From the NCBI RefSeq assembly GCF_010500835.1, contig NZ_JAAAMJ010000001.1, positions 124,001 to 188,000 of the forward strand: DNA of 64,000 bases. The letters are read 5' to 3'. This stretch comes from Aurantimonas aggregata (lineage in GTDB: Bacteria; Pseudomonadota; Alphaproteobacteria; Rhizobiales; Rhizobiaceae). The notes beneath the pieces are model-generated. The model was given only the letters and a program-made list of their open reading frames with translations. It searched no databases and was not told where the DNA came from. The translations under genes and the position numbers were made by a program. Below, piece by piece: positions 10,737 to 22,809 of the stretch; position 1 is the first letter of the stretch, and each line of letters starts with the position of its first letter.

Positions 10737-11057
10737 TCAGGCCTGGCGTTCGGGAACCCTCAGCACCAGCCCGTCGAGGTCGTCCCGGATCTTGATCTGG
10801 CAGGAGAGCCGCGAATTCGGCTGCATCTCGAAGGCGAAGTCGAGCATGTCCTCTTCCATCGCCTCCGGCTCGCCGGTCTTCGCCGTCCAGGCTTCATCGA
10901 CATAGACGTGGCAGGTGGCGCAGGCGCAGGCGCCGCCGCATTCCGCCTCGATCCCCGGCACGTCGTTGCGGATGGCGTTTTCCATCGCCGTCGTCCCGAC
11001 AGGGGCGTCGATGTCGTAGCGTTGCCCGTCATGCGTGACGAAGGTGAGCTTGGCCAT
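10737..11057 (-). CDS. Adrenodoxin-type [2Fe-2S] ferredoxin
   Basis: 106 aa, the standard size. The cluster ligands follow the C-x5-C-x2-C...C pattern at Cys40, Cys46, Cys49 and Cys86 ([19 protein letters not shown] and SRLSCQIKI). The N-terminal [24 protein letters not shown] is typical of bacterial adrenodoxin-like ferredoxins that feed electrons to cytochromes P450 or take part in Fe-S assembly. No P450 or iscSUA gene is nearby, so its partner cannot be told. The start was placed at MAKLTF; the longer frame adds a basic leader with no homology. It faces the exported DUF922 gene tail to tail. Confidence 0.9.
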
Positions 11058-11265
11058 GAGGTCTCTCGTTCCAGGATTGCGGGCGATGACGTCGCCCCTC
11101 CCACGGCGGGAAACGAGACGAGACGGGAGTGGATGAGCCATCCGGCGCCCCGCCCGCCGACCAACGGGCGAACCCGTTGCCGAAAGCGGCAGGCAGCCGG
11201 TTTGTTAAGGTCGGCAGGCCCTTGAAGTCAACTCTTGCGAGGCCCCTTGCGGGGTTTCGTTTCGC

Positions 11266-11646
11266 TCAGTCGATCAGCGAGCGGGCGAAGCTGGAGACTG
11301 CCTCGGCCTCGAGGCGCAGCTGCGCCAGCGCCGTCTCGTCCCGGAGCGCGGTCTCGTATCGCTCGGCGGAGTCGGCCAGCCGAAAGGCGCCGACATTGCG
11401 GGCCGTTCCTTTGAGCGAATGGGCAATCTGGCGTCGGTCCTCCTCGCGCGCCCCGTCGAGACGCCGCATCAAGGTGTCGAGCTGACGGCCCAGCATGCCC
11501 AGCACGTCGGCTTCGAGCGCCCGGTCGCCGCAGGTCTGGCGTGCCAGATGGACGAGGTCGATGGGCCGGCGCCGGGACGGACATGGCGCGCCGGCGGCCG
11601 CATCGCCGACTTTCGACTTTTCCGGCTTGAGTGCCGCCAGAAGCAT
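11266..11646 (-). CDS. Hpt domain phosphotransfer protein
   Basis: 126 aa. A single histidine-phosphotransfer domain with the signature IAHSLKGTARNVGA, in which His76 is the predicted phospho-acceptor, flanked by four-helix-bundle amphipathic segments. The N-terminal 30 residues are variable. The start MLLAALKPEK was chosen because AAGGAG lies 6 nt upstream; an ATG five codons earlier lacks a ribosome site. Such free Hpt proteins relay phosphate between hybrid kinases and response regulators. It sits divergently next to the growth-pole gene, with which it shares a 443-bp upstream region. Its kinase partner is not in the window; it is not ChpT, which is a larger pseudo-kinase. Confidence 0.85.
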   Translation of the reverse strand: MLLAALKPEKSKVGDAAAGAPCPSRRRPIDLVHLARQTCGDRALEADVLGMLGRQLDTLMRRLDGAREEDRRQIAHSLKGTARNVGAFRLADSAERYETALRDETALAQLRLEAEAVSSFARSLID

Positions 11647-12089
11647 CCCCGTCTCCTTCATCGCCCGACGGCGGCATCTGCCGCGGTCCTGGGACGTGCC
11701 GGCATGACACCGGAACGTCCCATCATCTGGCGACAGCATGTATGAAGGATTAATCGGAAACGGCGGAATGAGCCGATCGGCAACCGCCGTTAACGATGGC
11801 CAGGTCAGAAGACCGGCGGTGCGGCAGGGCCTGCGGCCAGAACGTGTCGGATTTTCGTAAAGCCGTTAACCTTATGTTTAAACTTGTAGGTATCCGGCGG
11901 TTTTACGGTTTCTTTCGATGCAGTCGCTATCTACCATGGATCATGCGAAACTGCCGGCTGGAGGCTATGCGCCTACCGCCGATGGCCAGCATGCCGGAAT
12001 CGGACGGGGCTTCCAACCCCTCGTGCACGTCTGTTTGGCGACCCTCGCCGGAGTGGGTCCGTAGTAACGAGTATTGAGGCGCGACGGCC
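11647..12089. other. Intergenic region between hpt and the growth-pole gene
   Basis: 443 bp with no convincing gene; a 93-codon plus-strand frame is Arg/Cys-rich and lacks coding character. It is more AT-rich than its surroundings around 11840-11940 (GTTAACC, TTATGTTTAAAC), which is where divergent promoters would be expected. A TTAA-N8-TTAA arrangement resembles, but does not match, the CtrA consensus, which has 7 bases between the half sites. Confidence 0.4.
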
Positions 12090-15000
12090 ATGTCTAAGAC
12101 CAATCCTATCGATCAGCTTTCGGACGAGGCAGTCAACGAACTCGAGGCTGCCCTCAGGGCCGATCTCGGGGAGCCCGAGATCCACGACGAGACAGGTGAG
12201 GCGTCGGGCACGCTGATGGAAGACGAGTCCGTCCAGCACGCCGAGATCGAGTTCTCGCTGGATGAGTTCGAGCGCCAGATCAGCGAAACCGCCGGTCAGT
12301 TGCGCGGCGACCAGGGGGACACGTTCGAGGCGAGCGAAGCGGCAAGCCCATCTGATCTCGACAGCGTCGATGTGACCGCGGCAGACCCTTCGCAGACGGT
12401 TGGCCTTCGCCGCGAAGCCGGCGATGAGGCTTGGACGCCGGCGGCTGCGCCCGCTGCAGCCGTCCATCGCCCCGTTCCCGCCAGCGACACCCCCCGCGCC
12501 TATGCCCAGCCCCCGGCGAACGACGAAGAACGCCGTTCGACCGTCATGGCCGACGCGCTGCTGACCCGCCGCGCCTCGAAGGCGCCGCTGTGGATCGCCC
12601 TCGCCGTCTCGGTGGCCTGGCTCGGCTTCACCGGGTTCCTCGCCTACAGCCTCTACGACATCGCCTCGCTGAGCGAAGGCGTCGCCGATCCGTCGCGCCA
12701 GGGCGAGATCGCCCTGCTGGCCGCCATCGCCTTCGTGCCGGTGCTGCTGATCTTCGCTTTCGCCGTCATGGTCCGCCGTTCGGCCGAACTCCGCCTGATG
12801 AGCCGCTCGCTAGCCGAAGTCGCGCTGCGCCTCGCCGAGCCCGAAACGGTCGCCACCGAACGCGTGATGAGCGTCGGCCAGGCCGTTCGCCGCGAAGTGG
12901 CGGCGCTGGGTGAAGGCGTCGAGCGCGCTCTGGCGCGCACGTCCGACCTCGAGAACATTGTCCACAAGGAAGTCGGCGCGCTCGAGCGGGCCTATGCCGA
13001 CAACGAGGTCAAGATCCGCACCCTCGTGCAGGATCTGGGCGCCGAGCGCGAGGCGATGCTGACGCACGGCGAGCGCCTGCGCTCGACCGTCGTCGGTTCG
13101 CATCAGCGTCTGGTCGAGGACGTCGACCGGGCGTCGGACCAGATCCTGCAGCGCATCGAGGATGCCTCGCACCGCTTCACCGCCCTGCTCGACGAGCGCA
13201 GCGAGGTCCTCAACAAGGACTTCGCCGCCCGCAGCGGCAATCTCGTCGAAGCCTTCGAGGACCGCAGCCGCAAGGCCAACGATAGCCTGACGGCTCACAC
13301 CGAAAGCCTCGTCGCACGTCTCGGCCAGAGCGCCGACGACGCGACGCATCGCCTGATCACAACCGGCGAGGATGTCGGCCGGCAGTTCGACGAGCGGATG
13401 GAGGATCTCGATTCCCGCTCCCGCGCCATCGTCGGCCGTCTCTCCGAAATCGGCCATGACGTCACCGCGCAGCTGACCGCCACCGGCGACGCCGTCTCCG
13501 GCCTCATGCAGACGCGCGGCCAGAACATCGCCGGCGAGAGCCAGCGTTTCCTCACCGACCTCACCGAAGCGCTCGACGGCCGTTCCATCGGCCTCGCGAT
13601 GGAGGGCCAGACCTTCCTCACCAGCCTCGAAGAAGCCTTCGAGGAGCGGATGCGGGAGATCGGCGACAAGAACCAGTTCTTGCTGACCCACCTGGTGGAA
13701 ACCGTCGACGACCGCCGCGAGCGCCTCGACGCCGACTCCCAGCGCTTCATCGAGACGCTCGAGCTCGGCCTCGGCGAGCGCACCGAGCGGGCGAGCCGCC
13801 TGCTCGACGATGCCAATACCCGGATTCTCGGCGGCCTCGACAACCGCATTGAAACGATCGAGCGGGCGCTCTCGGAGCGTGGCGACTCCCTCGTCGCGGC
13901 CCTCGACCAGCGCAGCGACGCCATCGACCGCTCCGGCGACCGGATCGCCGACGCGTTGGAGCGCCGCTCGCTAGAATTCGCCCGCACCCTCGCCGATCGC
14001 ACCCGCGACATCGCCAATGCCTTCGCCAGCGGCCAGGCTGAGCTGACGATGAAGGCCGGCGACGCCGTCACCCTGGCACAGGCGACGCTCGAAGGCCGCA
14101 CCGACGAGTTGCGCCACCTCTTCGACGAGCGCATCGCCACCTTCGCCTCGCTCATGGACGAGCGGACTGGCCAGCTTGCCGGCACCGTCGACGACCGCCT
14201 GCTCGCCTTCGACCTGGCCAGTGACGGCCGGATCGACAGCATCGCCCAGAAGGCCGGCGACATGGACGCCGCCATCGAGCGCGCCGCCGCACGGCTCGAG
14301 GACCTTCTCTCGCAGCGCCGCGACGAGATCGAGGCCGCCGTCGATCGCGGCACGGCCGGCTTCCGCGAGACGCTCGACGGGCGCGTCCTTTCGATCGAGA
14401 AGGCGATCGTCGGGCACGGCGAGGACCTCGAAGCCACCTTCGCCTTTGCCCAGCAGAGCCTGCTCGGCAATCTCGAGGAGAAGAGCGCCGGCCTGACCCG
14501 CGCCATCGAAGACACCGTCGCCCGCATGGAGGATCTGATCGGCGGTGCCGAGGGGGCTCTCGCCCGCGGCATCGACGACCGGACCGGCACGCTGGCGCAA
14601 CTGCTCGACGATCGGCGCGACGCCATCGAGAGCCTGGTGGCGGCGAGCCGCGACGGCCTGGTCAATGGCCTCGACCAGCGGATCGAGGCGATCGCCAGCC
14701 TGCTGTCGGAGCGGGTCGGCCAGTTCCACGACTCGATCGAGGACGAATCCGCCCGCCTCATCGGCGGCATCGACGAGCGGACCGGGGCGCTCACCATGGG
14801 CCTCGCCGACCGCCTCGCCGCCAGCCACACGATCCTGTCGACGGCGCAGGACGACCTCCTCGCCGGTCTCGACCAGCGTCACCAGGCGATCCGCACGACG
14901 CTCGACGAGCGGGCGAGCGTCCTCCGCAGCCTGTCCGAGGAGACCCACCAGAACCTCCTCGTCTCGCTGGACGAGCGCATTGCCGGGATCTCCGGCAGCT

Positions 15001-18000
15001 TCGACGAGGCGGTCAAGAACGTCGCCGAGGAACTTGCCGAGCGCGTCCAGTCGCTCAGCGGAGTCATCGACGGCTCGCGCCTCGCCATCGTCGGCGAGGT
15101 CGACCGCAACACCGAACGGCTCCGCGAGGAGATGGACGAGCGCACCAGCAGCTTCGGCCAGCGCATCGCCATCGACGCCGGCACGCATCTGGCTGCCGTG
15201 CAGGACGCGCTCGGCCTCCTCGTCGACGGTCTCGACGAGCGCGTCGGCAAGCTGCGCTCGACCGCCGAAGAGGTCGAGATCTCGCTCCGCGATGGCCTCG
15301 ACGGCCGCTTCGAAGCGATCCGCACGATCATGCAGGACGGCCACGGCACGCTCATCGGCGACCTCGACCTCCGCACCGAGACGCTGGCCAGCGAGATCGG
15401 CGAGCGGGTGATGCGCGTCGGCGAGAGCCTCGACGGCCGCACGGCGGCGCTCCGCGGCGTCATCGAACAGGCACGGGCCATTCTGGTCGACGGGCTCGAC
15501 GACCGGCTGGCCGCCTTGCAGGGCGTCATCGACGGATCGGAGGGCACGCTGCTCGCCGGCCTCGACGAGCGCACCGCCCGCATCGGCGAACAACTCGACA
15601 ATGGCCGCGACTCGATCGCGGCGGCCATGGAAGAGCGCGTCGCCGGCATTGCCGAGGCGATCATCGAGGCCGATCTGCGGCTGGCTTCGGCGCTCGAGGA
15701 GCGCCGTGACAGCATCGCCGGCATCGTCGAGGAGGCTGCCCGTTCGGCGGCCGCGACCCTCGGCGACCGCGCCGACGACGTCCGCCGTGTCATCGAGCAG
15801 AGCGTCGGCGACGTCTCGACCTCGCTGGAAATCCGTCGCGACGAACTGCTCGCGGCGCTGGAGACGGGTTCGACGAGCCTGACCGGCGCGCTCGACCAAC
15901 GTACCGAGGCGATCTCGACGGCGCTGGACCGCGGCCTCGGCAATGTGGAGCGGACGCTCAACACCCGCACCGCCACCATCGCCGACACGCTGCGCCAGAC
16001 GATTGCCAGCGCCACGGCCGCCATGGGCGAGGAAGCCGCCCGGGCCCGCCAGAGCCTCGAAGGCGAGACGCGCAAGATTGCTGAGAGCGTCGACGGGATC
16101 GAGGGTATCTTCCTCACCGCTAGCGAGGAGGCCCGGCTGCGCCTGTCCGGCGAGGCCGACCGTCTCGCCGAGCGTCTGGGCGCGCTGGCCGACGATCTGT
16201 CGACCAAGGCGTCGCAGGCCAGCACGTCGCTGGTCGACGAAGGCGGCCGGATCGCGGAAAACATCAGCGGCGCGGCGGAAGTCATCCGCTCGCTGTCCGA
16301 GCAGTCGCGCACCCGCTTCGCCACCGAGGCGGAAGAACTGGCACGGTCGATCGCCGATCTCTCCGGCCGGATGCAGTCCGAAGCCGAAGACGTTCGCAAC
16401 GGCCTCGCCGAGCAGCGCGCGGCGCTGGCCGACAGTCTGGCCGGCATCACCATCGCCGTGGCCAACGAATTCGAGCGCAATAGCGGCAGCTTCGCCGCCA
16501 GCGTCGACGAGGCGAGCGAAAGGCTCCGCCTGGCCGGCCAGGAAGGCCGCGACCGCTTCGTCACCGATGCCGGCGAGATCGCCACGCAGGTGGAGAGCGC
16601 CGCCGAGCGGATGCGCGAGATGACCGAGGCGGCCCAGGCCGCCATGCAGCAGAACACCGACGGCTTCGCCCGCCGGCTCACCGGCGCCTCCTACCAGATT
16701 CGTAGCGAGACCGACCGTGTCGCCGAGACCCTCGAGCAGCGCTCGCAGCGCTTCACCGAGGAACTGGGTGCGGTCACCGAGCGGCTGTCGGAAATGCTGG
16801 CGGCCAACCCGCTGCGCACCGACCTGGAGGAAGCGACACGGTCGATCCACGACCAACTCGCCGAGGCATCGCAGACCTTCCTGCGCGATGCCGACCAGGC
16901 CCGGACCGAGATCCTGACGCGGGGCGGCGAACTCGCCGGCCAGCTCGCCTCGATCTCCGGCGCCATCCGCGTCGAGACGGACCGGGCGCGCGAACAGCTG
17001 CTCGAGAGCGCCGGCAATGTCGGCGAGGAACTCGTAGCCCGGCTCGCCCGGTCCGAGCAGGAGATCGATGCCCGCGCCAAGATCCTCGGCGACGATATCG
17101 ACGAGAAGACCCGGACGCTGGCCGCGCTGCTCAGCGCCCGCACGTCGGAGATTTCCCGCGTCCTCGACGAGGAAGCGCGGCCGATGTTCGACCAGCTGGG
17201 CGAGAACGGTTCGGAATTCGCCCGGCTGCTGGAACGCAGCACCCGCGACGCATCCGACCGGATGCGCGAGGAGAACGCCGCCCTCGTCGCCGCGCTCGGC
17301 CGCCGTGCCAGCGAGACGATCGAGAGCCTCAGCGCGTCGTCCGGCGAGATCCTTGGGGCCTTCGACGAGAAGACCTCGACCGCCGTCGGCCTGGTCGCCG
17401 AGATGCGCGACCAGCTGCAGCGCGAAGTCGGCGGCCTGATCGGCCGGCTCGCCCAGACCAGCGGATCGCTGCGCGGCCTCGTCCAGGAAGCGGCCAGCAA
17501 TCTCGGGGCGATCGACGCGACCCTGCAGGAAACCGGCACCCGCTTCACCCAGGGCGCCGAGCAGGCCTCGAACTCGATCTCGCTCTCCTCACGCCTGCTG
17601 GAAAGCAATGTCGAGCGCCTCGATCATCTGTCGATGAGCGCCTTCTCGAAGGTCGCCGGCATTGCCGATCGCTTCCAGGAACACGGGGCTGTCCTCGGCG
17701 ACGCCGTCAAGCTGATCGAGGCCAGCGAGATGACGCTGCGCTCGACGCTCGAGAACGGCCATGGCGGCATCGAGGAGCTGTCGTCCGGACTGGTCAAGCG
17801 GTCGGAGGAGATCGGCGAACTGATGCGTTCCTTCGAGGAGGTCATCGAAGGCCTGTTCGAGCGGACCGAGCAGCGCTCGCGTCTGGTCTCGGCAAGGCTC
17901 TCGTCGGAAGTCGGCGAGAAGCTCGGCGAGGCGGATGCCCAGATGCAGGGTGCCGAGGAACGCTCGCGGGCGGCCGCCGAGGCCATGCGCAGCTCGATCC

Positions 18001-19115
18001 AGTCGGTCGTCGAGGACGCCACCCAGCGCTTCCACGGCGCCACCGAGGAGATGCGCCGGACCGCCGCCGAAATCCGCGAGGAGCTCGAGAGCGCCCGCAA
18101 CGAGATCCGGCGCGGCGTCTTCGAACTGCCGGAGGAGACCCGCGAGACCACCGAGGCCATGCGTCGGGCCGTCGCCGACCAGATCCGCGCCCTGAAGGAT
18201 CTCTCGGACATCGTCTCGCAGTCCGGCCGCGCCTTCGACGTGTCGTCGCAGCGTTCCGCGCAGCGTCCGGCCACCGTGGAAGCACCGTCCCGCCCGGCGC
18301 CCCAGCGTGTCGAGCAGCAGCGGCAGGCGCCGGAGAGCCCGCGGGCACCGAAGCCCTCGGAACCGGCCGACCAGGCGCTGTTCAGCGAAGAGGAAGAGCG
18401 TGACGTCGAGGCGCAGATCGCCGCATCGTTCATGACCGATGGCAATCTGGCGCGTGATCTCCGGGGGTCGAACTACGACGCCCCGGCACGGGCACCGTCG
18501 TCGACCGCCGGCACGGCATCAGGCACCGGCCCGGCCGAGATGCGCGGCGCCGAGCGGGCGCAGACCACGCAACCGTCGCAGCTGCGTCCGTCGGCACGGC
18601 CCGCCGAGCCACAGGGCCCGCAGGCCGGGGCATCGCGTCCCGGCGGCGGCTGGGTCTCGGATCTGCTGCGCCGCGCCTCGCGCGACGAGGAGGAAGCGGC
18701 TCCCGCTGCTGCAGCCCCGGCACGGCCGGCACCCGCCGCCTCGCAGCCGACCGAGCGCTCTCCGGAGCATGTCGTCGACTCGCTCAACTCGCTGTCGGTC
18801 GACATTGCCCGGGCCATCGACCACAACGCCTCGGTGGAGCTCTGGGACCGGTATCGCAAGGGCGAGCGGAACGTCTTCACCCGCCGGCTCTACACGATGA
18901 AGGGCCAGCAGACCTTCGACGAAATCCGCCGGAAATATCAGCGCGACGCGACCTTCCGCGAGGCCGTCGACCGCTATATCGGCGACTTCGAGACGCTGCT
19001 CGGCGACGTCTCCAAGAACGATCCCGAGAACCGGACGACACACACCTACCTGACGTCAGACACCGGCAAGGTCTACACCATGCTGGCCCACGCTTCGGGG
19101 CGCTTCGACAGCTGA
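12090..19115 (+). CDS. Giant growth-pole-ring (GPR/RgsE-like) coiled-coil membrane protein
   Basis: 2341 aa, the largest gene here. The N-terminus (1-165) is acidic and probably cytosolic. Two transmembrane helices follow at about 166-188 and 206-228. After them come some 1,800 residues of almost unbroken amphipathic helix, built of LDER/LDDR-type units spaced 11 residues apart (for example LDNR, LSER, LDQR). This is the apolipoprotein A-like hendecad pattern. A Pro/Ala-rich linker (about 2050-2220) leads to a conserved-looking C-terminal domain (WDRYRKGERNVFTRRLYTMKGQ). Size and layout match the Agrobacterium GROWTH POLE RING protein and Sinorhizobium RgsE, which mark and are needed for the polar growth zone in Rhizobiales. 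Homology is inferred from architecture, not from an alignment. A strong hairpin follows the stop. Confidence 0.82.
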   Translation: MSKTNPIDQLSDEAVNELEAALRADLGEPEIHDETGEASGTLMEDESVQHAEIEFSLDEFERQISETAGQLRGDQGDTFEASEAASPSDLDSVDVTAADPSQTVGLRREAGDEAWTPAAAPAAAVHRPVPASDTPRAYAQPPANDEERRSTVMADALLTRRASKAPLWIALAVSVAWLGFTGFLAYSLYDIASLSEGVADPSRQGEIALLAAIAFVPVLLIFAFAVMVRRSAELRLMSRSLAEVALRLAEPETVATERVMSVGQAVRREVAALGEGVERALARTSDLENIVHKEVGALERAYADNEVKIRTLVQDLGAEREAMLTHGERLRSTVVGSHQRLVEDVDRASDQILQRIEDASHRFTALLDERSEVLNKDFAARSGNLVEAFEDRSRKANDSLTAHTESLVARLGQSADDATHRLITTGEDVGRQFDERMEDLDSRSRAIVGRLSEIGHDVTAQLTATGDAVSGLMQTRGQNIAGESQRFLTDLTEALDGRSIGLAMEGQTFLTSLEEAFEERMREIGDKNQFLLTHLVETVDDRRERLDADSQRFIETLELGLGERTERASRLLDDANTRILGGLDNRIETIERALSERGDSLVAALDQRSDAIDRSGDRIADALERRSLEFARTLADRTRDIANAFASGQAELTMKAGDAVTLAQATLEGRTDELRHLFDERIATFASLMDERTGQLAGTVDDRLLAFDLASDGRIDSIAQKAGDMDAAIERAAARLEDLLSQRRDEIEAAVDRGTAGFRETLDGRVLSIEKAIVGHGEDLEATFAFAQQSLLGNLEEKSAGLTRAIEDTVARMEDLIGGAEGALARGIDDRTGTLAQLLDDRRDAIESLVAASRDGLVNGLDQRIEAIASLLSERVGQFHDSIEDESARLIGGIDERTGALTMGLADRLAASHTILSTAQDDLLAGLDQRHQAIRTTLDERASVLRSLSEETHQNLLVSLDERIAGISGSFDEAVKNVAEELAERVQSLSGVIDGSRLAIVGEVDRNTERLREEMDERTSSFGQRIAIDAGTHLAAVQDALGLLVDGLDERVGKLRSTAEEVEISLRDGLDGRFEAIRTIMQDGHGTLIGDLDLRTETLASEIGERVMRVGESLDGRTAALRGVIEQARAILVDGLDDRLAALQGVIDGSEGTLLAGLDERTARIGEQLDNGRDSIAAAMEERVAGIAEAIIEADLRLASALEERRDSIAGIVEEAARSAAATLGDRADDVRRVIEQSVGDVSTSLEIRRDELLAALETGSTSLTGALDQRTEAISTALDRGLGNVERTLNTRTATIADTLRQTIASATAAMGEEAARARQSLEGETRKIAESVDGIEGIFLTASEEARLRLSGEADRLAERLGALADDLSTKASQASTSLVDEGGRIAENISGAAEVIRSLSEQSRTRFATEAEELARSIADLSGRMQSEAEDVRNGLAEQRAALADSLAGITIAVANEFERNSGSFAASVDEASERLRLAGQEGRDRFVTDAGEIATQVESAAERMREMTEAAQAAMQQNTDGFARRLTGASYQIRSETDRVAETLEQRSQRFTEELGAVTERLSEMLAANPLRTDLEEATRSIHDQLAEASQTFLRDADQARTEILTRGGELAGQLASISGAIRVETDRAREQLLESAGNVGEELVARLARSEQEIDARAKILGDDIDEKTRTLAALLSARTSEISRVLDEEARPMFDQLGENGSEFARLLERSTRDASDRMREENAALVAALGRRASETIESLSASSGEILGAFDEKTSTAVGLVAEMRDQLQREVGGLIGRLAQTSGSLRGLVQEAASNLGAIDATLQETGTRFTQGAEQASNSISLSSRLLESNVERLDHLSMSAFSKVAGIADRFQEHGAVLGDAVKLIEASEMTLRSTLENGHGGIEELSSGLVKRSEEIGELMRSFEEVIEGLFERTEQRSRLVSARLSSEVGEKLGEADAQMQGAEERSRAAAEAMRSSIQSVVEDATQRFHGATEEMRRTAAEIREELESARNEIRRGVFELPEETRETTEAMRRAVADQIRALKDLSDIVSQSGRAFDVSSQRSAQRPATVEAPSRPAPQRVEQQRQAPESPRAPKPSEPADQALFSEEEERDVEAQIAASFMTDGNLARDLRGSNYDAPARAPSSTAGTASGTGPAEMRGAERAQTTQPSQLRPSARPAEPQGPQAGASRPGGGWVSDLLRRASRDEEEAAPAAAAPARPAPAASQPTERSPEHVVDSLNSLSVDIARAIDHNASVELWDRYRKGERNVFTRRLYTMKGQQTFDEIRRKYQRDATFREAVDRYIGDFETLLGDVSKNDPENRTTHTYLTSDTGKVYTMLAHASGRFDS

Positions 19116-20008: not shown

Positions 20009-21958
20009 CTAGCGCCGGGTTCGACCGTCATATTCCTGCACCGCGTCGCCGCCATAGATCAGTCGGCTCGGGTTGTTCGAGAAATCGTCGACGGCCCGGT
20101 CGATGCGGCCGACCGACTGCGTCACGTTGCGCACCAGTGTCTGGAATTCGCGCAGGCCCTGGCCGGTGAACCGCTGGAGATTGGCCGAGATCGGCGTCAC
20201 CTCCGCCTGGATCGACTGGGCGGCGGACCGGATCGACCGGAGCGTCGTGGCGACGTCGGTGCCGAGGCTGGTACCGTCCCTGGCGCCGGCCAGGAGGTCG
20301 TTGACCGAGGTCACGACGCTGTCGATGCGCTGAGACGCGGCGCTGATGCGCTGGCTGGTCAGCTCGACATTGGTGATGATGTCGTTGATGTCCTCGCGCC
20401 GTTCGCCGATGGAGTCGGCGACGCCGGCGATCGAGTCTGCCGCCCGGGCGACGTTGTCGGTCGCCGAGGACACGTTCTCCACCGCGCGGTTGACCTGGCC
20501 CGGATCGATGCTGGCGAGCAGCGTGTCGACCTGGGCGCGCGTTTGGGAGAACCCCTCGAGAGCAGTCTCGAGCGTCCGAACCGTCTGGTCGACGCCGTCG
20601 ATGATCGACTGGATTTCCGGCGTCTTGGCGCTGAGCGCCGAGGTGACGTTGCGCACGTCGCCGATCACCTCATTGACGGTCGTCGCATCGATCGAGTTGA
20701 TCAGCGCGTCCGCCGAGGCCACGGTCTCGTTCACCTGGCGGCTGGCTTCGGTGATGTTCTCGGTGATCGGTCCGAGCCCGGCGAGCAGACCGTCGATCTC
20801 GCTGCTGCGCCCGGCGATCGTCGTGGTGATGCGGTTGACGTTCTGGGCCGAGTTGGCGACCCCAGCGATCGCCGAATTGATCGCCTCGCGCTGCGTCGAG
20901 ATCGACTGCGTCAGCGACGAGACGTTGCTGGCCGTCGCGGCGATGTCGTCGATAGCGGTGGATACCGTGGCGGGATCGACGGCCGCGACGACGCGGTTGG
21001 CCGTTTCCAGCGTGGTGTCCAGACGCTCGGCGACACGCGTCGCCGTCTCGGTGATCGGCCCAAGGCCGGCGAGGAAGCGGTCGATCTGCGGCGTGTTGCG
21101 GCTGATGATCTCGCCCACGCCGCCGATGCTGTCCGCCGCGGTCCGCACCGAGGCGACGACGCTCTCGACGTTCTCGGACTGGGCCCGCAGCGTCTCGGAC
21201 ATGGCGGCGATGTTGGAGACCGTGGTGCGGATCGCGGCCGGATCGACCGCTGCGAGGATGGCCTGCGCCTCTTCGATCGCCTGCGGCAGACCCGCGGCCA
21301 CCGTATTCGCGGTGTCGGCCAGCCGGCTCAGGCTTTGCAGGAACTGGTCGACGTCGTCGGAGTTGGCCGCAAGGCTCGAGGTGAACCGCTCGATGTTCTC
21401 GGAGGTCTTCGAGACGTTATCGAGCGTCACGCTGATCGAGGGCCCGGCGCCGGCGACGATGCTCTCGAACTCGCCGAGGATCGTGTTCGCCCGGTCGGCG
21501 ATGTCGCGGGCCGTGGCCAGGATATCGGTGATGTCCGACGGATTGGCCCTGATGATCGGCACGGTGCCCTGCTGCTGCGCTTCCTTGATGATGTCCGGCT
21601 CGTCGGCGGCGCCGCCCTTCAGCTCGATGAACGCAAATCCCGTCAGGCCCTGGAAGCCGATATTGGCCTGCGTCGTTTCCTTGATCGGCAGGTCCGGATC
21701 GACCTGGGTGGAGGCGATGACCACACGGGGATTGTTGGGATCGATGCGCAGCGACTGAACGGAGCCCACCGGCAGGCCGTTGAACAGCACCTGGCTGCCC
21801 TGCTGCAGGCCGGTGACCGAACCCTCGATCCGGACCAGCAGCGGCACGCGGGAGTCGCCCTGGGACGCGAAGATCGACCAATAGACGAAACCGAACGCCA
21901 GCACGAGGACGACGAGCGTGAAGAGACCGACGCGGACGTAGTTCGCCTTGGATTCCAT
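20009..21958 (-). CDS. mlaD: MlaD-like MCE-domain lipid transporter subunit with long helical repeat tail
   Basis: 649 aa, against about 180 in E. coli MlaD. One N-terminal membrane anchor (about 9-30) is followed by a single MCE domain (about 35-125: VRIEGSVTGLQQGSQVLFNGLPVG, TGFAFIELKGG). The remaining 500 residues are helical, rich in Ala, Ser, Thr, Asn and Ile, and contain related segments such as LAGLGPITETATRVAERL and LAGLGPITENITEASRQV about 110 residues apart. This resembles MCE proteins whose helices form a tunnel across the periplasm. It is the substrate-carrying subunit of the Mla-type phospholipid transporter. The start codon overlaps the mlaF stop by one base (TGATG). Confidence 0.88.
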   Translation of the reverse strand: MESKANYVRVGLFTLVVLVLAFGFVYWSIFASQGDSRVPLLVRIEGSVTGLQQGSQVLFNGLPVGSVQSLRIDPNNPRVVIASTQVDPDLPIKETTQANIGFQGLTGFAFIELKGGAADEPDIIKEAQQQGTVPIIRANPSDITDILATARDIADRANTILGEFESIVAGAGPSISVTLDNVSKTSENIERFTSSLAANSDDVDQFLQSLSRLADTANTVAAGLPQAIEEAQAILAAVDPAAIRTTVSNIAAMSETLRAQSENVESVVASVRTAADSIGGVGEIISRNTPQIDRFLAGLGPITETATRVAERLDTTLETANRVVAAVDPATVSTAIDDIAATASNVSSLTQSISTQREAINSAIAGVANSAQNVNRITTTIAGRSSEIDGLLAGLGPITENITEASRQVNETVASADALINSIDATTVNEVIGDVRNVTSALSAKTPEIQSIIDGVDQTVRTLETALEGFSQTRAQVDTLLASIDPGQVNRAVENVSSATDNVARAADSIAGVADSIGERREDINDIITNVELTSQRISAASQRIDSVVTSVNDLLAGARDGTSLGTDVATTLRSIRSAAQSIQAEVTPISANLQRFTGQGLREFQTLVRNVTQSVGRIDRAVDDFSNNPSRLIYGGDAVQEYDGRTRR

Positions 21959-22809
21959 CAAACAATCCCCTCTTGGGCATGCCCGGCATTTTCCGGCGCG
22001 ACGATGGTGCGCGCACGTTTGCCGTGGAAGTACGATTTCACCCACGGGTGGTCGAAGGCGAGCATGGTCGACAGCGGACCTTCGACCAGCACCTTGCCGT
22101 CCCCGAGCACGGCGATGCGGTCGCACGCCTGGAACAGGCTGTCGAGGTCGTGGGTGACCATGTACACGCTGAGGCCCAGCGTGTCCCGGAGCGTCATGAT
22201 CAACTGATCGAAATCGGCAGCGCCGATCGGGTCGAGACCTGATGTCGGCTCGTCGAGGAACACGACGTCCGGATCGAGCGCCAATGCCCGTGCAAGGGCG
22301 GCGCGCTTGATCATGCCACCCGACAGTTCGGAGGGGAATTTTCCGGCCGCATCCTGCGGCAGGCCGACGAGATCGAGCTTCAACCGCGCCAACTCGTGCA
22401 TCAGCGCCGGCGACAGGTCGAGATACTCTCGCATCGGTACTTCGATGTTCTCGAGAACCGTCAGCGAGGAGAACAGCGCGCCATGCTGGAACAGGACTCC
22501 CCAGCGGCGTTCCACCGCCAGCCGGTCGTCGTCGCTGGCCTCCGGGTAGTTGATCCCGAACACGTCGATCGTCCCGCCCTGCTTCTGGTTGAGGCCGAGA
22601 ATGGTCCGCAGCAGCACCGACTTGCCGGAACCCGACGGGCCGACGAAGCCGAGGATCTCGCCGCGTCGCACGTCGAGCGAGAGGTTGTCGAGGATCGTGT
22701 TCTCGCCGAAGCGCACGGTCACGTCCTCGACGCGGATGATGATGTCGTCATCCTGCGAAGCGGCGGCGGCCCCGTTCGGGCGAGCGGGATCAGAGACCAA
22801 TGGAGGCAT
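21958..22809 (-). CDS. mlaF: MlaF-like ATP-binding protein of lipid ABC transporter
   Basis: 283 aa. A complete ABC ATPase: Walker A GPSGSGKSV, Q-loop region FQHGALFSSLTV, signature LSGGMIKRAALARA, Walker B VVFLDEPTSGLDP and switch MVTHDLDS. The LSGGM signature and SGLDP are typical of MlaF/Ttg2A ATPases that drive phospholipid transport with the permease encoded just upstream. The first 30 residues are variable. Its 5' end overlaps the permease gene; an ATG at 22830 is also possible, and neither start has a strong ribosome site, which suggests coupled translation. Confidence 0.92.
   Translation of the reverse strand: MPPLVSDPARPNGAAAASQDDDIIIRVEDVTVRFGENTILDNLSLDVRRGEILGFVGPSGSGKSVLLRTILGLNQKQGGTIDVFGINYPEASDDDRLAVERRWGVLFQHGALFSSLTVLENIEVPMREYLDLSPALMHELARLKLDLVGLPQDAAGKFPSELSGGMIKRAALARALALDPDVVFLDEPTSGLDPIGAADFDQLIMTLRDTLGLSVYMVTHDLDSLFQACDRIAVLGDGKVLVEGPLSTMLAFDHPWVKSYFHGKRARTIVAPENAGHAQEGIV

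Follow-up and report, generated by a model that had tools for sequence, protein, structure and literature searches.

GPR of Agrobacterium tumefaciens (Atu1348) is described as a protein of 2,115 aa with two N-terminal transmembrane segments, a 1,700 aa helix, PF01442 across ca. 75% of its length, and a C-terminus that is required for function (PMC8262873; we compare it by this published description). RgsE of Sinorhizobium meliloti has 2,089 aa and 42% identity to Agrobacterium GPR (PMC7327166), and in three genera, GPR/RgsE orthologs have been localized to the growing pole or to the new pole (PMC8262873, PMC7327166, PMC9938171). How GPR works is presented as unexplained in PMC8262873.

An RgsE ortholog and its conserved neighborhood

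The longest open reading frame in the window, i.e., in the whole 64-kb stretch of DNA that we analyzed, is a GPR/RgsE-family gene (Table 1) whose limits had been placed exactly by an earlier sequence-only reading; it starts with ATG, encodes 2341 aa, and is the single match for this gene in its own 4.86-Mb genome. This genome is Aurantimonas-like, with Aurantimonas, Aureimonas, and Jiella as the closest relatives that carry a name. Compared with two congeners, dN/dS amounts to 0.064 and 0.086 in the core and to 0.022 and 0.053 in the C-terminal domain (C-domain), with higher values of 0.17 and 0.13 in the N-terminal segment, and because these values are low, we conclude that the frame evolves as a protein under purifying selection.

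The gene is an ortholog of Sinorhizobium RgsE and a homolog of Agrobacterium GPR, a kinship that had been proposed before and is supported by the domain order, C-domain identity, and gene neighborhood that it has in common with S. meliloti RgsE. Its product carries two N-terminal transmembrane helices and, behind them, a long helical core, PF01442-like repeats along most of its length (Apolipoprotein A1/A4/E; 154.7 bits with a cut-off of 90, 3e-45, 12 stretches), and a C-domain that is 70.7% identical to that of RgsE, but it is longer than its S. meliloti counterpart (2341 versus 2089 aa) and ca. 36% identical to it across the whole length. This counterpart is an annotated CDS with just the length of RgsE given in PMC7327166, though the public record labels it (L022:11776-18045) with the misleading name "kinesin". 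By analogy to the orthologs of other genera, the window protein may likewise occupy a polar position and serve as a scaffold. ZorA of Zorya also combines a transmembrane anchor with a long helical tail, but the weak NCBIfam ZorA match of the window protein (35.8 bits) is far below the cut-off of 700, and we rejected membership in that family. In Aurantimonas manganoxydans SI85-9A1 (L026 / L071), the open frame of GPR that includes the C-domain spans just 533 codons, owing to a sequencing error or else to a disruption of the gene.

The gene order of S. meliloti, folP-DUF922-ferredoxin-HPt-GPR, is the same in the window, where DUF922, ferredoxin, and HPt were recognized by Pfam and folP by homology. 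Across 108 loci that include 1.5 kb or more of upstream sequence, we found the ferredoxin gene at 106, the HPt gene at 87, DUF922 at 82, and folP at 74, although some of these loci end too soon to cover all four genes. In 90 of 113 order members, an HPt-like gene lies upstream of the GPR-family gene in head-to-head orientation, and a simple pattern search detected H-x-L-K-G in 60 of these 90 genes; at the sensitivity of our search, no such neighbor was found in the Brucella-type clade or in several Aureimonas. Among 41 loci of the class-wide set, some of them short upstream, ten have an HPt-like gene (two of the same order and eight from four families plus Sphingomonas), and the Sphingomonas copy (L185:2622-2915) seems to be without the H-x-L-K-G histidine. 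The window further encodes an MlaD/MCE-domain protein (20009-22126, minus strand) whose long helical C-terminal region has a period of ca. 3.55-3.57, near that of most GPR homologs from other orders.

Table 1. Features of the GPR/RgsE locus (window coordinates)
Feature	Position	Strand	Basis
2Fe-2S ferredoxin gene, conserved neighbor	10737..11141	-	PF00111; at 106/108 loci
HPt-domain protein gene, head-to-head with GPR gene	11266..11739	-	PF01627; frame from first ATG
GPR/RgsE-family gene, 2341 aa	12090..19115	+	ORF from ATG, single own-genome match, PF01442, RgsE synteny
N-terminal segment, aa 1-160, variable	12090..12569	+	Indel pattern, dN/dS 0.17 and 0.13
Two transmembrane helices, aa 167-185 and 210-228	12588..12773	+	Hydropathy, AF2 helices
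Conserved juxtamembrane block, ca. aa 229-341	12774..13112	+	Invariant or nearly invariant columns of alignment A3
Hendecad zone, aa 501-1400, period 3.66-3.67, 22/11-residue steps	13590..16289	+	Fourier, self-match, motif spacing
Distal helical zone, aa 1401-2055, period ca. 3.60, mixed segments	16290..18254	+	Fourier
Proline-containing linker, aa 2056-2224, irregular indels	18255..18761	+	1/37 C-region indels fit the whole-turn rule
Conserved C-terminal helical domain, aa 2225-2341	18762..19112	+	A1/A2 conservation, 102/289 class genomes, AF2

Periodicity and packing of the helical core

The sequence-only reading had described LDER-type motifs recurring in 11-residue steps over ca. 1,800 residues. 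A periodic array is indeed real, as the core contains 22 LDxR-type motifs compared to a mean of 3.5 and a maximum of 12 in 1,000 shuffles, and of the 21 intervals between neighboring motifs, 17 are multiples of 11 (15/17 within residues 500-1400). Yet its commonest step is 22 residues, and with 21 of the 22 motifs at positions 367-1268 and a single one at 1548, the array covers ca. 900 rather than 1,800 residues. The best self-match lags in the middle of the core (ortholog average) are 22, 44, 11, 66, and 29, which makes a double hendecad the practical unit. No tandem DNA repeat was detected within the GPR gene of the window, so the repeat units have diverged at the DNA level.

Fourier analysis of aa 236-2035 gives a hydrophobic peak at 3.660 residues with a power of 116 (shuffled 95% level 11), compared to a power of only 0.1 at 3.5. 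The proposed hendecad rather than heptad pattern holds for the middle half of the protein, but the flanks lie at 3.57-3.64 and the exact 11-residue register is limited to residues ca. 500-1400; by segment, the period is 3.63 (236-500), 3.66-3.67 (501-1400, the only part near 11/3), and 3.60 (1401-2035), with direct 11-residue peaks at aa 801-1400. As a heptad control, we used the E. coli SbcC coiled coil because SMC of the own genome gave no match above the cut-off, and its seven windows showed periods of 3.44-3.54 with powers of 4.9-12.5. A heptad coiled coil was rejected on these grounds and because in none of 38 tabulated sequences (window included) does the power at 3.5 residues exceed 3.2, and 35 of them have a whole-core peak at 3.59-3.67 with a power above 20. 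Most of the 38 are zoned in the same way, with ca. 3.58 just past the membrane, 3.64 further on, a long stretch at 3.66, and finally 3.57-3.64; exceptions are short members (837-1169 aa) with a short 3.66 section or none, and L047 and L049 (small genomes) as well as L054, which center on 3.62-3.64.

To map the layout of charges, we selected 683 windows by their 11/3-like period and set them in phase by their hydrophobic residues. The resulting hydrophobic stripe is narrow, occupying just 3 of 11 positions (0.58/0.92/0.49); relative to it, R/K has its maximum at -65 degrees and D/E at +98 degrees, and R/K falls on one common side in 102/102 orthologs and D/E opposite in 97. Between like helices in parallel, a basic flank would face the acidic flank of the next helix, whereas an antiparallel arrangement would set like against like. 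The narrow stripe and its oppositely charged flanks thus favor a parallel coiled coil over a helix lying on lipid, from which we infer a parallel oligomer of rod shape. An alpha helix has ca. 3.6-3.65 residues per turn, so that a period of 3.66 implies little supercoil. The window protein has three prolines in aa 253-2055, though low core proline is partly by construction since a proline rule placed the distal boundary; with an alternative cut 350 residues before the end, core proline is 0.09%.

We consider it moderately probable that the membrane-anchored GPR core is a parallel, nearly untwisted coiled-coil rod in which whole-turn indels keep the stripe in line. The two transmembrane helices would anchor the protein in the inner membrane, ca. 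1,800 residues would continue as a helix with one narrow hydrophobic stripe, and a linker followed by the conserved helical domain would end the protein. Several copies would associate in parallel through their stripes and so form a nearly untwisted rod of ca. 270 nm if fully extended (1,800 residues at 0.15 nm each), which may hold the C-domain and its partners in position at the growth pole; the ring of Agrobacterium is reported to be 200 nm across (PMC8262873). As an analogy, the peripheral-stalk b-subunit of the F-ATPase also joins a transmembrane anchor to a hendecad helix in a right-handed coiled coil (PMC6131620), though it is far shorter than the GPR core.

An AF2 model of residues 158-586 (429 aa; pLDDT 76, pTM 0.26) has two helices in the transmembrane region, the second of which extends into a helix of ca. 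200 residues, and then two more long helices; its low pTM and two weak breaks, which could be bends or hairpins, count against the rod. This N-terminal model had no structural matches below E 1.4, and core residues 501-1400 had no solved homologs at E 0.001. The C-domain is predicted to be all-helical (pLDDT 72, pTM 0.60), with only weak matches to solved homologs (E 0.26 and above) and no confident PDB match in Foldseek (best E 1.6). The best VIA-align score among 319 chains was Z 6.2, and since such a value is commonplace among helical bundles, it neither assigns nor excludes a fold.

The class A helices of apolipoproteins are 22-mers punctuated by proline, and both of their flanks carry basic residues. 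A likeness to apolipoproteins had been part of the sequence-only reading, and it is borne out by the PF01442 score but not by the charge layout: steps of 22 residues are present, but prolines are nearly absent and the flanks carry opposite charges. As proposed in PMC8262873, which models parts of GPR as bundles like those of apoA-IV and argues in favor of lipid roles, the core might instead be an apolipoprotein- or perilipin-like giant amphipathic helix on the inner membrane that sorts or organizes lipids at the pole. The strong PF01442 similarity fits this proposal, as do the 11-residue repeats typical of the lipid helices of perilipins, apolipoproteins, and synucleins (PMC5889406) and the role of the pole as a site of membrane and cell-wall synthesis (PMC8262873), and a lipid-facing stripe would likewise be kept in line by whole-turn indels. 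We nevertheless find it unlikely, given the narrow stripe with opposite flank charges and a core that is net negative (-0.058 per residue) with almost no Trp (0.01%) or Tyr. The giant amphipathic helix of Plin4 resembles the window protein as a very long 11-residue-periodic helix, but its repeats have no indels between them and carry a net charge of +1 per 33 residues (PMC5889406), while the window protein is net negative, has oppositely charged flanks, and is anchored in the membrane. Plin4 was no longer targeted to droplets when its net charge was shifted from +1 to -1 per 33-mer, though the negatively charged helix coated droplets again once it was made more hydrophobic (PMC5889406), so the net negative charge of the core weakens the case for lipid binding but is in principle no bar to it.

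Insertions and deletions in whole turns

Indels were called in 38 disjoint nearest-neighbor pairs that cover 76 of 112 sequences (120 less 7 truncated or short ones and 1 duplicate), and they were accepted if the 30 residues on each side were at least 60% identical; 71 gaps in the N region, 55 in the core, and 59 in the C region failed this flank test and were not counted. Of the 36 core indels that were accepted, 33 have a length of the form 11a+18b (the null averages 12.6 and reaches 23 at most in 20,000 draws with each length shifted by up to 8 residues), including 13 multiples of 11 (null mean 3.1), and the three that break the form measure 1, 3, and 48 residues. In coiled-coil terms, 18 residues are a heptad plus a hendecad. 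The same form fits 0 of 18 indels in the N region (before ca. aa 252) and 1 of 37 in the C region. Other gap costs or flank thresholds gave 33/36, 33/35, and 13/13, a loosened flank test gave 47/50, pairs of at least 85% identity gave 18/19, and lengths up to 70, where 24% of integers qualify, gave 24/27; a first pass with other region limits had found 13/31 multiples of 11. The rule is not made by the aligner, as most of the simulated deletions that were recovered had their true lengths (78 of 86 exact, with 28 in the 11a+18b set compared to 27 true ones). Two 66-aa indels sit at about one site within a single genus, and some indel events may thus be shared rather than separate.

When the local period is measured in the partner that lacks the insert, it predicts the indel quantum. 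Our phase statistic uses 34 events, omitting the length-3 event (residues on both sides) and the length-1 event (too short; 0.28 turn off). Indel length divided by local period is near an integer, with a mean cosine of 0.906 compared to 0.06 under the null (SD 0.12, maximum 0.53), and 30 of the 34 events lie at most 0.1 turn from whole turns of the local stripe; the others are a 22 (0.13 turn), the 48 (0.18), a 94 (0.15), and the 145 (-0.27). Swapping periods among events lowered the mean cosine to 0.65, and none of 5,000 swaps reached the observed value. Multiples of 11 occur at a mean local period of 3.658 (13 events) and other lengths below 70 at 3.626 (15 events), and stripe alignment seems to matter more than exact length. 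Under the rod reading, gains and losses would survive mainly as whole turns, i.e., 11 residues (3 turns) at 3.67, 18 residues (5 turns) at 3.60, or sums of these, because packing is proposed to require that the stripe stays in line.

Part of this quantization can be explained without selection by unequal recombination, given that many inserts are near copies of their neighbors: identity to a neighboring stretch is 0.78-1.00 for single inserts of 11, 22, 29, 44, 62, and 65 aa (93% for the 44 aa), and several breakpoints, including those of the 121 and the 145, have a 24-base match better than ca. 98% of background places. That the 11/18 quanta are nothing but a mutational by-product of recombination between tandem units, with phase unselected, would be compatible with either packing model, but we regard it as rather doubtful. 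Both 66-aa inserts are without similarity to their neighbors (0.18 and 0.20) and have a 24-base breakpoint match no better than background, yet they are 0.02 turn off whole turns; moreover, short non-unit indels are common in the N and C parts but nearly absent from the core, and the window gene has no detectable DNA tandem array. Probably, both processes act, with recombination supplying whole units and phase deciding which ones stay, and we infer selection on phase.

Distribution of the family and wider reading

The C-domain was present in all 40 genomes searched (own included), and genomes as reduced as 1.1 Mb (L049) and 1.4 Mb (L058) retain members of 1717 aa and 936 aa, respectively, which suggests that the family member is hard to lose. 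In a set of 289 genomes of the class, the C-domain profile matched 102, of which 4 belong to the same order and 98 to other orders (one only at E 4.9e-4), with Sphingomonas parapaucimobilis as a named carrier. Distant RgsE homologs have been reported from Emcibacterales and Rhodospirillales (PMC7327166), and with 98 alphaproteobacterial genomes of other orders, the family is spread more widely than that source describes. We fetched 20 proteins of this set (2 of the same order, 18 others), and the 18 have one to three N-terminal hydrophobic segments, long cores with at most 2.1% proline, total lengths of 699-2486 aa, and a whole-core period of 3.57-3.59 in 15 and 3.62 in 3. In 16 pairs from outside the order, accepted core indels were limited to one 323-aa event (2 pairs), one 4-aa gap (residue 439/1387), and small indels close to the ends; larger differences in length, for example the 193 aa that separate L152 from L172, failed the flank test. 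The two ends of 9 order members are matched by an HMM of the short rods, and the weaker matches between these ends overlap or are out of order. An origin of the long proteins by insertion of a middle section into a shorter rod is only suggested by this, since helical periodicity allows spurious matches.

The occurrence of the C-domain in other orders, including Sphingomonas, where such polar growth is not established here, could also mean that the window protein is an ordinary long coiled coil without a pole-specific role in this lineage and that polar growth is assumed from homologs alone. We consider this improbable in light of the localization of orthologs from three genera to the growing pole or the new pole (PMC8262873, PMC7327166, PMC9938171) and the synteny that is conserved within the order.

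The novelty lies in the whole-turn rule for core indels, the broader range of the family, and the pairing with HPt. A literature search that covered few subscription papers and no preprints gave no paper with GPR in its title for the hendecad or indel pattern, which is weak evidence of novelty, and the main text of PMC8262873 uses neither "hendecad" nor "repeat".

It is possible, though we say so tentatively, that GPR is a length-tunable, nearly untwisted strut of Alphaproteobacteria with a period of ca. 3.57, into which Rhizobiales inserted an expandable whole-turn 11/3 section, and that HPt links it to a phosphorelay while 20-residue deletions rotate its stripe. Deletions of 20 aa in predicted coiled coils of GPR, present beside the wild type, are reported to cause severe shape defects (PMC8262873). 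At 3.66 residues per turn, 20 residues make 5.46 turns, i.e., nearly a half-turn rotation of the stripe, while 22 residues bring no such rotation. If GPR is such a strut, the published deletions would act by misaligning the stripe and not by the loss of a special motif. The whole-turn rule thus offers an alternative reading of these phenotypes and predicts that core deletions of 11 or 22 residues would be tolerated but those of 7 or 20 would not, while our results widen the family beyond Rhizobiales and point to the HPt protein as a possible partner of GPR.
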